A stretch of DNA of 32,433 nt from Sulfurovum sp. (GTDB lineage Bacteria; Campylobacterota; Campylobacteria; Campylobacterales; Sulfurovaceae): assembly GCF_015493435.1 (NCBI RefSeq), contig NZ_WGDD01000011.1, forward strand, positions 1-32,433, in the 5' to 3' direction. The notes under the pieces were generated by a model. It ran no database searches. It had not been told where the DNA came from and was given only the letters and a program-made list of their open reading frames with translations. A program made the position numbers and the translations under genes. Below are positions 24,243 to 30,468 of this stretch, piece after piece; position 1 is the first letter of the stretch; each line of letters starts with the position of its first letter.

Positions 24243-25169
24243 TTGTATTTTAGTGACTACATCAGAAACTGCAGAGAAAAATGTCAGATCACCCAGGAAA
24301 AAATGGTGAAGGATCTTTATGATTTCGACTTTGGGAACTTTGCCGGACTGGACACTACGACACTCAGCAAATGGGAACGTGGCATCAGCAAACCGAAAAT
24401 TGCCAGACAGGCCGGGGTGATCCGCTATTTTCAAAAACTGACCGGTAATGCCCTGCCCTGTCTTGAGCACTGCAGCATCGCCGAAGCGGAAAAAATGATT
24501 TCAGCAAGCGGTATGGAACACATGGTAGGCAAAAGCAGGCATCTCATACTGAATTTTCCTTCTGCCATGATGCAAAGCAGTGAGATCACGGTGCATCAGC
24601 TCCGGCATTCAAAGATCATGGACGACGTCATCGATATCAATATTGATCTCGACAGGGATTTTAACCAGAATTCAACCGGTTTAAGCCGGGAAACATTCAA
24701 AAAATGGGCGCTGCATCCAGGCAGTGCGTTTTATGTCTGTGAATACAAAGAACAGTTCTTCGGACTGCTTTTCAGCCTTCGGCTGAAACAGAATGTTTTT
24801 CAGGCACTGATGGATTTTGAGAAAGAGGAACGCACACTCGATGCAAATGATTTTGCCGCCTATAATGAAGAGGGAAACAGTTACGTCACTTCCTTTTTCG
24901 CCCTGAACGAAAAAGCGGCTGCCCTGCTTTTTGTCCGTTATTTTGCCTACCTTATCGCCCATCAGAACCGCATAGCGGAAGTCGGCGCAGCCACCATGAT
25001 GGAAGACGGAAAGAAACTCATAGAGAACATGCACCTGACCCACTACAGTTCGGCAGAGATCAAACCGGGTACAAAAATGCACACTTACAGAGAAACACTT
25101 TCTCGTTTGCTTGCCCAGGAGAATGTTGTCAAAATGATACTTTCAAACAGGGAGTCTCCTGGAAAATAG
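24243..25169 (+). CDS. HTH regulator with a possible acetyltransferase-like C-terminal domain
   Basis: This 308-residue protein starts at TTG 24243 (AGGG 8 nt upstream; an in-frame stop lies just beyond). Residues 4-70 form an XRE/Cro-type helix-turn-helix, with TQEKMVKDL as helix 2 and a recognition region TTTLSKWERGISKP at 38-51. Residues 100-308 are not a known domain to me. A stretch such as GSAFYVCEYKEQFFGLLFSLRL followed by TSFFALNEKAAALLFVRYFAYLIAHQNR, with a final KKLIENMHLTHY, has the strand-helix rhythm of GNAT N-acetyltransferases, so an acetyltransferase-like or ligand-binding effector is possible but unproven. It is probably a cytoplasmic transcription factor, perhaps autoregulated or acting on the divergent RNase/ATPase genes. 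Its 3' end overlaps the opposing small gene by 41 nt. Confidence 0.8.
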   Translation: MYFSDYIRNCREKCQITQEKMVKDLYDFDFGNFAGLDTTTLSKWERGISKPKIARQAGVIRYFQKLTGNALPCLEHCSIAEAEKMISASGMEHMVGKSRHLILNFPSAMMQSSEITVHQLRHSKIMDDVIDINIDLDRDFNQNSTGLSRETFKKWALHPGSAFYVCEYKEQFFGLLFSLRLKQNVFQALMDFEKEERTLDANDFAAYNEEGNSYVTSFFALNEKAAALLFVRYFAYLIAHQNRIAEVGAATMMEDGKKLIENMHLTHYSSAEIKPGTKMHTYRETLSRLLAQENVVKMILSNRESPGK

Positions 25170-25443: not shown

Positions 25444-25474
25444 TTGACTACAGCAAATTATTTTTAGCTATAAT
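25444..25474 (+). promoter_or_regulatory. Promoter of the membrane/VWA operon
   Basis: TTGACT (25444-25449) and a perfect TATAAT (25469-25474) are separated by 19 bp, a little longer than ideal. Transcription would start near 25481, giving a leader of about 22 nt with a strong AAGGAGAGAG ribosome binding site. Confidence 0.65.
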
Positions 25475-25502
25475 TATCCTCAATAAAGGTAAGGAGAGAG
25501 AA

Positions 25503-26858
25503 ATGGATAAAATAGGGGCATTTATTATGATGCATCAGATAGAGACTTTACTGCTTGTTTTTGGGATGATCGTACTGGCGTTCATCATTACACACTGGCA
25601 GGAAGTAAAGTTCTGGTGGCTTAACTTTACGTACAATTTTCCGCTCATCGGGAAACTGTCAACACTTTCCAAAGATATAGAAGGCTTTGATGAAAAGCAC
25701 AAGTGGTTCTACTCGGAAGAAGCACTCTGCCGCGACTACTACAATTTCTACGAAAAAGTGGACAAAAACGGCGAATCGTATGATGAAGCCAAAGAATACC
25801 TGCATGCCGCAGGCGAACTGGGAAGAAAACCTACCCCTACTTTCATTTGGATCATGATCTTTGTACTCGTCATCGTCGAAGCATTCGGGTTTGCCTATGT
25901 GCTGGCCGGATTTACCATTCCGGGGGCAAGTGAAGCCACCCAGCAGAAAGGTGCCATCGGAGTTGCCGCCATGCTGGCCATTCTTCTCGTGTGGCTCACA
26001 CACATGACGGGTCAGGAACTGCACAAAAATACACTGATCAAAAAAATACGCCGCTGGTACAAGAACGATAATGCCGGCGGTTCGAACTGGCGCGATCTCA
26101 AACCGGATGAACAGCTCATTACCATAGACAATACCTTCGATGACAGCGCATCTCCAAACTACATCAGAATGCTCAACCGTCTTGATGTCAACGACAAGGT
26201 AAAAACTACCTACACAAAGACCATTCTGACGCTGATATTTATTTTTGCCGTTGCCATAGGCGCGACATACATCAGGCACCAGGTGCTTACCCAGGAAATA
26301 GCAAGTGCACATGAAAGCGCGATGAATATTTTCAACGATGATGCTTCTCCTTTCGGCGATACCCGAAATGCCGCTGCGGATGAAGATGTCGGTGCGCTCT
26401 TCGGAGACGAAGCTGCCAATGATGCGAAAGAAGATCTCTCTTCTCTTTTTGGCGGGAAAGACGCAGGTACAGCCAAGGCTTCAGGCAAAAATACCGCTGC
26501 GGTAGAAGATGAAACAAACCAGAAAGGCGGAGATGCCACATTTGTGATTTTAGGTCTTATCTTTGTCTTTATTCAGATTCTGGGCATCTTTTTCGGGATG
26601 CACTGGGACTTTGCAGGCCGCGAGTCCAAAGCAGCCTATGAATGTCTCCGCGGTTTTGCCACCAAAAAAGCCTTCCTTTCCTACTATGAAAGAGCAAGAA
26701 CACATATTGCACGGGTGGCACAGCAGCAGCTCCAGAAACTGCAGCACAAAATGAATATCATCAATGACAATTCCGGAACGGATGCTGAAACCACAGCTTT
26801 GCTGCGCAACAACAAAGAAAGAACATTCAGACAATATCTGACATTTGAGGACAAATAA
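25503..26858 (+). CDS. Uncharacterised five-span membrane protein paired with VWA-like protein
   Basis: This 451-residue protein starts at ATG 25503. AAGGAGAGAG lies just upstream and a good promoter at 25444-25474, so the 77-residue upstream extension of the frame is rejected. Five hydrophobic spans lie near residues 13-30, 113-136, 151-166, 239-256 and 346-366. The segment 32-110 is soluble and Tyr/Glu-rich (FYSEEALCRDYYNFYEK). Segment 257-345 is acidic, Ala/Gly-rich and probably disordered, with a repeated D-x-x-x-LFG motif (DVGALFG 295-301, DLSSLFG 311-317). The C-terminus (370-451) is helical, Gln-rich and basic. I recognise no family. Its stop overlaps the start of the next gene (TAATG). 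It could anchor or receive signals from that exported partner. The function is unknown. Confidence 0.8.
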   Translation: MDKIGAFIMMHQIETLLLVFGMIVLAFIITHWQEVKFWWLNFTYNFPLIGKLSTLSKDIEGFDEKHKWFYSEEALCRDYYNFYEKVDKNGESYDEAKEYLHAAGELGRKPTPTFIWIMIFVLVIVEAFGFAYVLAGFTIPGASEATQQKGAIGVAAMLAILLVWLTHMTGQELHKNTLIKKIRRWYKNDNAGGSNWRDLKPDEQLITIDNTFDDSASPNYIRMLNRLDVNDKVKTTYTKTILTLIFIFAVAIGATYIRHQVLTQEIASAHESAMNIFNDDASPFGDTRNAAADEDVGALFGDEAANDAKEDLSSLFGGKDAGTAKASGKNTAAVEDETNQKGGDATFVILGLIFVFIQILGIFFGMHWDFAGRESKAAYECLRGFATKKAFLSYYERARTHIARVAQQQLQKLQHKMNIINDNSGTDAETTALLRNNKERTFRQYLTFEDK

Positions 26859-27667
26859 TGAAACGACTGCTGCTGACACTTTTGACATTCACCGCTCTGC
26901 TTGCCGCACGCAACGACGTACCAAGCTGCTATAAAGCACTGCATATCGAAAATCCGGATCCGGGTATTGAAAAAGAACTGTTCATCCTGGTAGACCAGAC
27001 CACACAGCTTGACAAAAACCTGATGATCTACACGTACAAGAATATGATGAAATTCATCCGGAACGGCGATGCGGTGACCATCGCTTCATTCTCTTCCAAT
27101 TCAAATGGGAAATATACGGATGTATCCTATTCGGGCGCACTGGAAAACCTGCTTCCCCAAAGCGCGAAACACGAGATCGCCAAAAAGAAACTGAGAAAAT
27201 ATCAGGCATGCATGAACGGTCAGTACAAATACGCCAAAAAGAAAGCGACCAGGGCACTGGTCGCAACGCTCAAGGGCGCAAACAAAAAACTGCCGCATTC
27301 GGATATTCTCAAATCACTCGACGATATTGCGGAGCATCTCATCCAAAATGCCAAAGCCAAAGAAAAAGTGGTGCTTTTGGTTTCGGACATGATGGAACAT
27401 TCATCCATCACTTCCTTCTATGCCAAAGGTTCGCTCAAGCGTATCGATACCAAAAAAGAGATGGCCAAACTGAAAAAGAGCGGATATACAGCCGATTTCG
27501 GCGGTGCAGAGGTTTACGTCATCGGTGCAGGAATGGTCGGAAAGAAAAGCTACAGAGATTCAAAAACACTGAAAGCCCTGACCGCTTTCTGGGAAGCTTA
27601 CTTCAGGGCAAGCAATGCAAACCTGCAAGCCATCGGAACACCGATGCTGCTTGAGGACATCAAATAA
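26858..27667 (+). CDS. Exported VWA-like protein of the two-gene operon
   Basis: This is a 269-residue protein with a signal peptide (MKRLLLTLLTFTALLAA) and no other membrane span, so it is likely periplasmic. Residues 40-180 look like a von Willebrand A fold: a KELFILVDQTTQLD strand and loop (40-52) in the place of the metal-binding DxSxS motif, DAVTIASFSS (71-80), and KVVLLVSDMMEHS (170-182), where SDMM matches the usual second metal-loop strand. The MIDAS is degenerate (DQTTQ). Segment 185-220 contains a YAKGSLKRIDTKKEMAKLKK helix, and AEVYVIGAG is the last strand. The one-base overlap with the membrane-protein gene (TAATG) implies coupled translation and a physical complex. No homologue with a known role is recalled. 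Confidence 0.8.
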   Translation: MKRLLLTLLTFTALLAARNDVPSCYKALHIENPDPGIEKELFILVDQTTQLDKNLMIYTYKNMMKFIRNGDAVTIASFSSNSNGKYTDVSYSGALENLLPQSAKHEIAKKKLRKYQACMNGQYKYAKKKATRALVATLKGANKKLPHSDILKSLDDIAEHLIQNAKAKEKVVLLVSDMMEHSSITSFYAKGSLKRIDTKKEMAKLKKSGYTADFGGAEVYVIGAGMVGKKSYRDSKTLKALTAFWEAYFRASNANLQAIGTPMLLEDIK

Positions 27668-27711: not shown

Positions 27712-28377
27712 AAAAATCTGCACAATGCCCTTCTTTTAAAACAACTCTACCAACTCAAACAGCTGGGCTACAAATATACCGATGTAACGCCCTATCAGGA
27801 AGAAAAAATCGACCTTCTCCTGCCCGATACACTGAAATCACTGCAGAAACAGGCGATGACCTGCCACCTCTGCGACTTGAGCAAAAGCCGGAAAAAGGTT
27901 GTCTTTGGAGAAGGCAGTCCCCATGCCGATATCCTCATCATCGGCGAAGGGCCCGGAGCTACGGAAGACAGCAGCGGAAAACCGTTCGTCGGACGTTCGG
28001 GGGAACTGCTTTCCAAAATGCTTGAAAATGTACTCGGTCTTAGCAGAGCAGATGTCTATATTACCAACATCGTCAAGTGCCGACCGCCCAACAACAGAGT
28101 CCCAACCCCGACAGAAGCACATACCTGCCAGCCCTACCTGCTCAAGCAGATAGAGCTCATCGCACCCAAACTCATTCTGACACTCGGTGCAACCGCTTAC
28201 CATTACCTGACCGGAGACGATACGGGCATCACAAAAGTCAGAGGTACGGTACATACCTACAAAAAAGCCACACTCATCCCCACCTACCACCCAAGCTACC
28301 TGCTTAGAAACCCCAGCGCGAAAAAAGAAGTATTTGAAGACCTTTTGAAGGTGAAAGAGTTGATGAAGCAGTGGTGA
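27709..28377 (+). CDS. Uracil-DNA glycosylase, family 4 (iron-sulfur)
   Basis: This 222-residue DNA repair enzyme removes uracil (from dC deamination) in the base excision pathway. The four cysteines that bind the 4Fe-4S cluster are visible (Cys52, Cys55, Cys124, Cys140), with CHLCDLSKSRKKVVFGEG at 52-69. The water-activating loop GEGPGATED is at 79-87, followed by GKPFVGRSGELL and the NIVKCRPPNNR stretch (120-130). The base-flipping His motif HPSYLLRNP is at 194-202. This is family 4, or the related bacterial TIGR00758 group, not the E. coli Ung family. The ATG lies inside the hairpin described above, and no free ribosome binding site is visible. Confidence 0.93.
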   Translation: MKNLHNALLLKQLYQLKQLGYKYTDVTPYQEEKIDLLLPDTLKSLQKQAMTCHLCDLSKSRKKVVFGEGSPHADILIIGEGPGATEDSSGKPFVGRSGELLSKMLENVLGLSRADVYITNIVKCRPPNNRVPTPTEAHTCQPYLLKQIELIAPKLILTLGATAYHYLTGDDTGITKVRGTVHTYKKATLIPTYHPSYLLRNPSAKKEVFEDLLKVKELMKQW

Positions 28378-28473
28378 CCTTCAAGTCACTCGGATCAAAA
28401 CCGTAAAACAGCTTCTTTTCTTCTCTCTGTATTTCCTGATCCAAGGTATCAAGCAGTGACGATGAGTATCAAA

Positions 28474-28489
28474 TCCCGATCTCTCGGGA
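28474..28489 (-). terminator. Candidate terminator between convergent glycosylase and acs
   Basis: TCCCGA-TCTC-TCGGGA is a perfect 6-bp stem with a 4-nt loop, 24 nt past the acs stop. Read on the minus strand it is followed by TTTGAT, a short T-tract. It may serve acs, and weakly the convergent glycosylase gene. No other feature is seen in the 135-bp gap. Confidence 0.4.
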
Positions 28490-28512
28490 ATGACAGAGAC
28501 AGAAGTGCCGTA

Positions 28513-30468
28513 TTACTCACACTCTTTTTTGAGGATAGTTTCAATCGTTTCCACGATACTCGGATCTTCAAGCGTGGAAGTATCCTGGGTAATGGCTTCG
28601 CCTTTGACGAGGCTTCTGAGGATCCTTCTCATGATCTTTCCCGATCTTGTTTTGGGAAGGTCCGGTACAAATGCCATGGCATCGCACAGCGCAATGGCGC
28701 CGATCTCTGATTTGATCATACCGTTGATCTCTTTCATCGTTTCAAGCTCATCAGCCACGCCTTCATCATCTTTAAGGACCACGTAGGCAAAAATACCCTC
28801 ACCTTTAATTTCGTGCGGCTTGCCTACAACAGCCACCGCTGCAACATTGTCATGCTTCTTGATGGCTGCTTCAACTTCTGCCGTACCCATTCTGTGGCCC
28901 GAAACGTTAATGACATCATCGGTTCTTCCCGTGATGGTAATGTAGCCGTCTTCATCCATCATTGCACCGTCACCGGTAAAGTAAACCGCTTTACCGTCCT
29001 TTTTGCAGTCACCGAAGTAAGACTTCACAAATCTTTCAGGGTCGTTCCAGATCGTTCTGATCATACTCGGCCACGGTTTGGTAATGCACATAAAACCTTT
29101 TTCGCCTACCGGTGTCGGCGTACCGTCCTCTTCCATGATCTCCGCAACGATACCCGGCAGAGGGAATGTCGCACATCCGGGCTTGATGGGGGTCGCTGCC
29201 GGCAGCGGCGAGATCATATGTCCGCCTGTTTCTGTCTGCCAGTAGGTATCGACAATTGAACATCTTGCGTTTCCTACCGCTTCATAGTACCATTTCCATG
29301 CCGCAGGGTCGATCGGCTCACCCACGGTTCCGAGGATACGCAGAGAAGAGAGGTCGTATTTTGCCGGCTCGTCCGCACCCATTTTATGCAGAAGCCTGAT
29401 GGCAGTGGGCGCAGTATAGAACTGGTTGATCTGATATTCTTCGACCATCTTCCAGCATCGGCCTGCATCCGGGAAAGTCGGTACCCCCTCGAACATCACG
29501 GTTGTAGCACCCGCAGCGAGCGGCCCGTACACAATGTAGGTATGCCCTGTGATCCAGCCCACATCGGCCGTACACCAGAAAGTATCGTTGTCTTTGATGT
29601 CAAAGACCCACTCCATGGTCATCTGCGCCCAGAGAATATATCCGGCGCTTGAATGCTGAACCCCTTTTGGTTTTCCCGTACTGCCTGACGTGTAGAGCAG
29701 GAAAAGCGGATGCTCGGAATCCACGATCTCCGCTTCGCACTGGACAGACTCATTTTCTATCAGTTCGTTGTAGGCATAGTCACGTCCCGCTTCCCAGTGT
29801 ATCTCTTCACCGTTACGCTCGACAATACAGACGGCTTCAACACAGGCACAGCCTTCTTTAAGCGCTTCATCCACAACCGGCTTGAGCATATACGGTTTTC
29901 CTTTTCTGAAAGCACCATCCGCCGTCACCACCAGTTTTGCTTCCGCATCGATGATCCTGTCTCTGAGTGCTTCAGCGGAAAAACCGCCGAACACGACCGA
30001 GTGGACCGCTCCAAGTTTGGCACAGGCAAGCATAGAGATCGCCGCTTCCGGTATCATCGGCATATAAAGCACGACCCTGTCGCCTTTTTTGATGTTGAAT
30101 TTGTTTCTGAAGAGGTTGGCCGTTCTGTTGACCTCATAGTAGAGTTCACGATACGTCAGTGTTCTCTGGTCGCCGTTGTCGCCTTCAAAGATGATCGCCG
30201 CTTTGTTCTTCTTGGTCTTGAGGTGTCTTCCCACGCACTGGTAGGCCACATTCAGTTCACCGCCCTCGAACCATTTGTAGAAGGGGGCATCCTCTTCGTT
30301 CAATACGGTCTCGAACGGTTTGGACCAGTCTATCTTCTCCTGTGCAAATCTGCCCCAGGTACCTTCATAGTCTTTTTCAAATGCTTTGACGAGATTTTGG
30401 TATGCATCCATATCTTTGATCAACGGATCGGTAAACAGTTCTTTATGAGGGGTGTATATTTCACTCAT
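28513..30468 (-). CDS. acs: Acetyl-CoA synthetase (AMP-forming)
   Basis: This 651-residue cytoplasmic ligase makes acetyl-CoA from acetate, ATP and CoA through acetyl-AMP. The length equals the usual bacterial enzyme. The nucleotide-binding P-loop [12 protein letters not shown] lies near residues 263-274, with conserved [10 protein letters not shown] and [19 protein letters not shown] stretches. The C-terminal [11 protein letters not shown] places the catalytic, acetylation-regulated Lys at 611 (609 in E. coli). AAAAGGATGATAT precedes ATG 30468. It is a single gene, probably controlled from the 180-bp gap shared with the divergent DUF89 gene, where a TTATGTTATTAT -10-like stretch occurs on the minus strand. 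It allows acetate assimilation, and no acetate kinase is seen in the window. Confidence 0.97.

Follow-up and report, generated by a model that had tools for sequence, protein, structure and literature searches.

The window analysed here, a stretch of 32,433 nucleotides from a 2.16 Mb genome, carries two adjacent, co-directional genes that a sequence-only reading had described as a tightly coupled operon for a five-span membrane protein and an exported protein with a VWA-like core, and had placed in no known family. The closest relatives of the genome, judged by this pair, are Sulfurovum assemblies. The locus raises the question of whether the two genes belong to a described system and, if not, what kind of envelope apparatus they may encode. 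The features referred to below are as follows (positions in the window, all on the + strand).

25444..25449, +: TTGACT, proposed earlier as a -35 box; probably not functional
25460..25474, +: extended -10 element ATTTTTAGCTATAAT
25491..25496, +: ribosome binding site AAGGAG
25503..26858, +: gene 1, 451 aa, five-span inner-membrane protein of an unnamed family
25851..25907, +: second membrane span (aa 117-135), with Glu126
26274..26534, +: acidic periplasmic linker (aa 258-344), longer than the linkers of three-gene relatives
26385..26405, +: DVGALFG motif (aa 295-301), Sulfurovum-specific
26433..26453, +: DLSSLFG motif (aa 311-317), Sulfurovum-specific
26858..27667, +: gene 2, 269 aa, exported protein with a predicted VWA fold
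26927..26929, +: Cys24, invariant (47/47)
26993..27007, +: degenerate metal site DQTTQ (aa 46-50); D46 and T48 invariant (47/47), no conserved Ser at the fifth position
27209-27211, +: Cys118, probable disulfide partner of Cys24
27386..27388, +: Asp177, invariant (47/47), just past the strand at aa 169-175

The genes share one base within TAATG, and both this overlap and the AAGGAG ribosome binding site were found as first described. The dedicated promoter proposed at the same time stands only in part. Its TATAAT was retained upstream of the pair in all 22 inspectable Sulfurovum copies, usually preceded by ATTTTTAG, whereas the TTGACT taken as its -35 box is limited to the window copy (1/22). 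The lack of conservation of TTGACT fits Campylobacterota promoters without a -35 box, as has been reported for the sigma-70 promoters of Campylobacter (PMC3847290). The gene upstream of the pair (window 24243-25169) has a weak N-terminal helix-turn-helix match and an unnamed C-terminal domain.

The two proteins

Neither protein reached the curated cut-off of a Pfam or NCBIfam model, and nothing convincing was found in PHROGs or among PDB sequences, whether the proteins were searched singly or as family profiles; phage records and E. coli genomes gave no match. The impression that neither belongs to a known family is thereby upheld, and the profile searches found no characterised complex that would claim both. 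A literature search, with subscription journals mostly outside its coverage, found no account of a VWA-OmpA-membrane operon like the one described below. The two proteins are thus undescribed and without a family name; in the three-gene cassette set out below, the proteins carry no annotation beyond 'hypothetical' or 'OmpA family'.

The product of gene 2 begins with a short N-terminus that resembles a signal peptide by eye and has no full-length membrane span by hydropathy. Its VWA fold is confidently predicted: the AlphaFold2 model (pLDDT 90, pTM 0.88) carries the fold over residues 34-269 and matched 96 PDB chains at E <= 0.001 in Foldseek, and the VIA comparison reached a Z of 11.9, with an rmsd of 3.1 across 171 residues. 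Structure prediction, proposed earlier as a check, thus agrees with the VWA-like core noted from the sequence, although Pfam VWA matches among relatives were stray and weak only. The degenerate metal motif is likewise genuine and extends across the family, in which D46-x-T48 and Asp177 are invariant, Ser or Thr is kept at position 148 and the second Ser of D-x-S-x-S is missing, position 50 being mostly P, V, Q or L in the alignment of 47 members; hence the canonical MIDAS motif D-x-S-x-S was not found in this family. Asp177 sits where, from the fold, the final metal-site Asp of a VWA domain would be expected. D46 and T48 belong to a conserved face of the protein that also includes E180, S182 and Y232. 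The invariance of Cys24 and Cys118 in all 47 members suggests a periplasmic disulfide. The protein thus resembles the VWA superfamily in its predicted fold and differs from it in having D-x-T in place of D-x-S-x-S and in the two invariant cysteines.

The fold matches bear on the role in adhesion raised by the sequence-only reading, taken here as a surface adhesion or matrix-binding complex with an exposed VWA domain. The VWA domains of pilus tips and integrins are adhesive, and such chains are among the matches of the gene 2 model; however, intracellular proteins appear among the same matches at equal Z, the neighbourhood has no conserved barrel, pilin or secretion partner, and the partner that is conserved is a wall-binding lipoprotein (see below). 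We regard an adhesive complex as improbable.

Hydropathy analysis (Kyte-Doolittle) of the product of gene 1 yielded exactly the five spans claimed for it (residues 13-31, 117-135, 150-168, 239-257 and 347-365). The distribution of Lys and Arg places, by the positive-inside rule, the N-terminus and the linker (258-344) outside and the C-terminal tail inside, with which the zinc-ribbon tails of Arcobacter-type relatives agree. The membrane-periplasm topology envisaged for the pair is supported. The cytoplasmic tail is very variable across lineages and absent in Sulfurovum; examples include zinc ribbons (L104, L077 and L022) and a probable excisionase-like helix-turn-helix (L062). The structural model, with long helices, was of moderate quality (pLDDT 82, pTM 0.71), and its fold search returned common helical arrangements only (Z at most 6.7) and no convincing match.

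Within the spans, Glu126 and Gln358 are identical in all 43 aligned family members and His167 in 40 of them. Such conserved polar residues could belong to an energised tether or motor, in which ions passing by way of Glu126, His167 and Gln358 would drive the VWA protein or the lipoprotein in the manner of TolQ or ExbB; the first three spans are TolQ-like in topology order (N-terminus out, cytoplasmic loop, hairpin), and the OmpA lipoprotein partner recalls Pal. Against this, hhalign comparison of the family with 19 MotA/TolQ/ExbB proteins gave probabilities under 1 percent and there is no MotB/TolR-like partner with a span and Asp of its own, so that a motor appears unlikely. Membership in the MotA/TolQ/ExbB family (PF01618), for which there was no Pfam match either, was rejected.

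A three-gene cassette and its two-gene form

The two genes are inherited together. In a set of 60 relatives both occur in the same 10 genomes and both are absent from the rest; among 397 Campylobacterota genomes, 14 have a solid match to the VWA protein and all 14 have the membrane protein gene adjacent to it; and the 20 plasmid records with a match all have both genes. A genome scan gave 120 confirmed relatives, and the 80 loci fetched from these cover Campylobacterota and alpha-, beta- and gammaproteobacteria, the carriers including Aeromonas, Pseudomonas, Pantoea, Cupriavidus, Campylobacter and Arcobacter. The sole locus labelled Bacteroidota (L098) is a short contig that may be misbinned. 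Since the adjacent pair is conserved far outside the genus, the pairing is not due to chance. The expected conserved co-directional pair is thus borne out, in the 14 Campylobacterota genomes as in the plasmid records, and a lack of co-occurrence in related genomes, which would have counted against the pair, does not apply, co-occurrence being near-universal.

Inheritance of the pair is patchy, with 5 of 18 near-complete Sulfurovum genomes in the set of relatives carrying it. It often lies 5' of udg. Other genomes keep the udg-acs neighbourhood but lack the pair, and one genome has the pair at a different place. The pair is an accessory module.

This distribution, the plasmid copies and a match of the OmpA part to ZorB models might indicate a portable anti-phage or competition cassette, loosely similar to Zorya. 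The ZorB match is, however, confined to the common OmpA domain, neither the membrane nor the VWA protein has a convincing match to a PADLOC model, and the 144 flanking genes gave scattered single matches to defence models with no apparent enrichment, a count made with no matched background set. A defence role seems to us rather unlikely. Like Zorya (ZorAB), the loci combine a membrane component with an OmpA-domain component, but they have no MotA-like ZorA and no further Zorya genes conserved beside them, and their OmpA protein is a lipoprotein and not MotB-like; as only its OmpA domain matched ZorB models and the membrane protein had no ZorA match in PADLOC, membership in Zorya was rejected.

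The annotated records place a gene for an 'OmpA family protein' directly upstream of the pair. Profile searches showed the order OmpA lipoprotein, membrane protein, VWA protein in 44 of the 48 loci outside Sulfurovum that have 3.6 kb or more of upstream sequence. Of the other four, L067 has an apparent deletion, L111 has an orphan VWA gene, L101 is a truncated copy and L072 lacks the lipoprotein gene. The three protein distance matrices agree closely (r 0.85-0.91, where permutations reached 0.17 at most), so the proteins travel and evolve as one unit. Near the cassette loci no fourth gene shows wide conservation, and with no conserved neighbour beyond the three genes the surroundings give no clue to the task of the cassette.

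The upstream gene encodes a protein with a glycine zipper, an OmpA domain and a C-terminal domain of about 200 residues (A3) for which no known match was found, profile searches included; in most copies there is a lipobox-like Cys at the N-terminus. The Asp and Arg by which OmpA-family domains bind peptidoglycan are kept in 51/52 and 52/52 of the lipoproteins respectively. This three-gene unit with a peptidoglycan-binding OmpA lipoprotein is absent from the sequence-only reading. The functional guess made there survives in its general part, as the lipoprotein partner supports a role in the envelope; nothing found here points to adhesion or secretion.

Several loci depart from the common arrangement. 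At L067 (7459-8831) a deletion or an assembly error has joined the N-terminus of the OmpA lipoprotein to the membrane protein's cytoplasmic tail and left the VWA gene intact. L067, L070, L071, L080 and L090 carry a related membrane protein downstream of the VWA gene, possibly of the LemA family, which was matched by 3 of the scanned neighbour genes. The orphan VWA member of L111 (7974-8825), on a gammaproteobacterial contig, lies beside a UvrD-type helicase gene and has neither lipoprotein nor membrane gene.

The window has the adjacent membrane and VWA protein genes that mark the cassette, but it has no lipoprotein gene upstream of them, and neither does any of the 18 informative Sulfurovum loci. 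The A3 domain was found in none of the Sulfurovaceae genomes searched, among them the window's own, while the same search succeeded in 8 of 8 other cassette-holding Campylobacterota genomes as a positive control. The Sulfurovum membrane protein differs as well: its linker is lengthened and a cytoplasmic tail of 75-147 residues is missing. The acidic linker with two D-x-x-x-LFG motifs described earlier is indeed present; the motifs are specific to Sulfurovum (23/23 full-length copies against 0/56 others) and not a feature of the family. A locus from a second Sulfurovaceae genus (L159:4700-6690, genome G294) also has two genes without the lipoprotein gene; there the VWA protein carries a lipobox (LSGC) and the membrane protein is almost without a periplasmic linker. 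That changes to the linker accompany the absence of the lipoprotein in both Sulfurovum and L159 suggests that the linker may form part of a docking interface. Because the three-gene form is so broadly distributed, we infer that the two-gene form is a reduction and not the ancestral state. There is good support both for the cassette and for its two-gene form in Sulfurovum.

A lipoprotein partner might be encoded elsewhere in Sulfurovum. One candidate considered in trans, a generic 232-aa OmpA lipoprotein of the genome that holds the window, was rejected: most Sulfurovum genomes have it whether or not they carry the pair, and two genomes that do carry the pair lack it. A glycine-zipper OmpA lipoprotein of 232-237 aa is encoded in the window's own genome (L028; G000 contig C57, about 28039-28734, minus strand), directly upstream of another exported VWA protein, one whose DASGSM metal motif is intact; this lipoprotein is widespread in Sulfurovum, with a distribution unrelated to that of the pair.

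A proposed envelope arrangement and its analogues

We lean towards the view that Sulfurovum carries, in this pair, its own version of an undescribed envelope cassette with a VWA adaptor layout, from which the outer anchor has been lost. The envelope architecture is well supported, and the cassette probably forms a cell-envelope complex; its task could perhaps be envelope sensing or tethering, though the cassette may serve another purpose. In this arrangement the VWA protein would act as a periplasmic adaptor that docks on the linker of the membrane protein and, where the lipoprotein is present, also on the wall-bound lipoprotein. The state of the wall or outer membrane might thus be relayed to the inner-membrane protein and to its cytoplasmic tail, which varies between lineages, or the layers might simply be tethered. 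In Sulfurovum the outer anchor would have been lost, and the rebuilt linker may compensate. A more specific proposal, which we offer only tentatively, is that of a new envelope signal or force relay, in which the VWA adaptor with its degenerate metal site couples the five-span family to the wall via the OmpA lipoprotein and which has been rewired in Sulfurovum with the D-x-x-x-LFG peptides as docking elements.

Two described systems may serve as analogues, and YfiBNR, with which no homology is claimed, is the best working one. In this tripartite envelope signalling system of Pseudomonas aeruginosa, an OmpA-type lipoprotein of the outer membrane sequesters the periplasmic protein by which the inner-membrane component is controlled (PMC4655355), a set of OmpA-type lipoprotein, soluble periplasmic adaptor and inner-membrane protein like that proposed here. 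YfiR, however, is no VWA protein, and YfiN combines a diguanylate cyclase with a periplasmic PAS domain, whereas the membrane protein of the cassette has five spans and no enzyme domain; GGDEF was found neither in the window's membrane protein nor among the matches listed for its relatives. The other analogue, Tol-Pal, shares a wall-binding OmpA-domain lipoprotein, a soluble periplasmic partner and an inner-membrane component, but the soluble partner of the cassette is a VWA protein and not a TolB propeller, and no TolA-like gene is conserved. A Pal-like lipoprotein is found in the three-gene relatives but is absent beside the window pair and, as this family, from the Sulfurovum genomes searched, and the inner-membrane protein is not of the TolQ type. 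Membership in either system fails because the inner-membrane parts are unrelated.

A genomic association of VWA proteins, OmpA-family proteins and membrane proteins without an assigned function also marks the gene clusters around FtsZl1 (Makarova and Koonin 2010, PMC2875224). The cassette resembles them in this association and differs in having no FtsZ-like protein and no conserved GTPase or kinase neighbour; Tubulin_2 (PF13809) was found in 0 of the 20 genomes examined while three control genomes scored, and the FtsZl1 membrane-remodelling clusters were therefore excluded. A MoxR/VWA chaperone module was also rejected, there being no ATPase cluster conserved near the cassette, only the three genes.

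The cassette is thus a widespread, compact and nameless unit found in two phyla. As culturable, genetically tractable species carry the full set and Sulfurovum provides a natural two-gene form, the role of the wall anchor is open to direct comparison.
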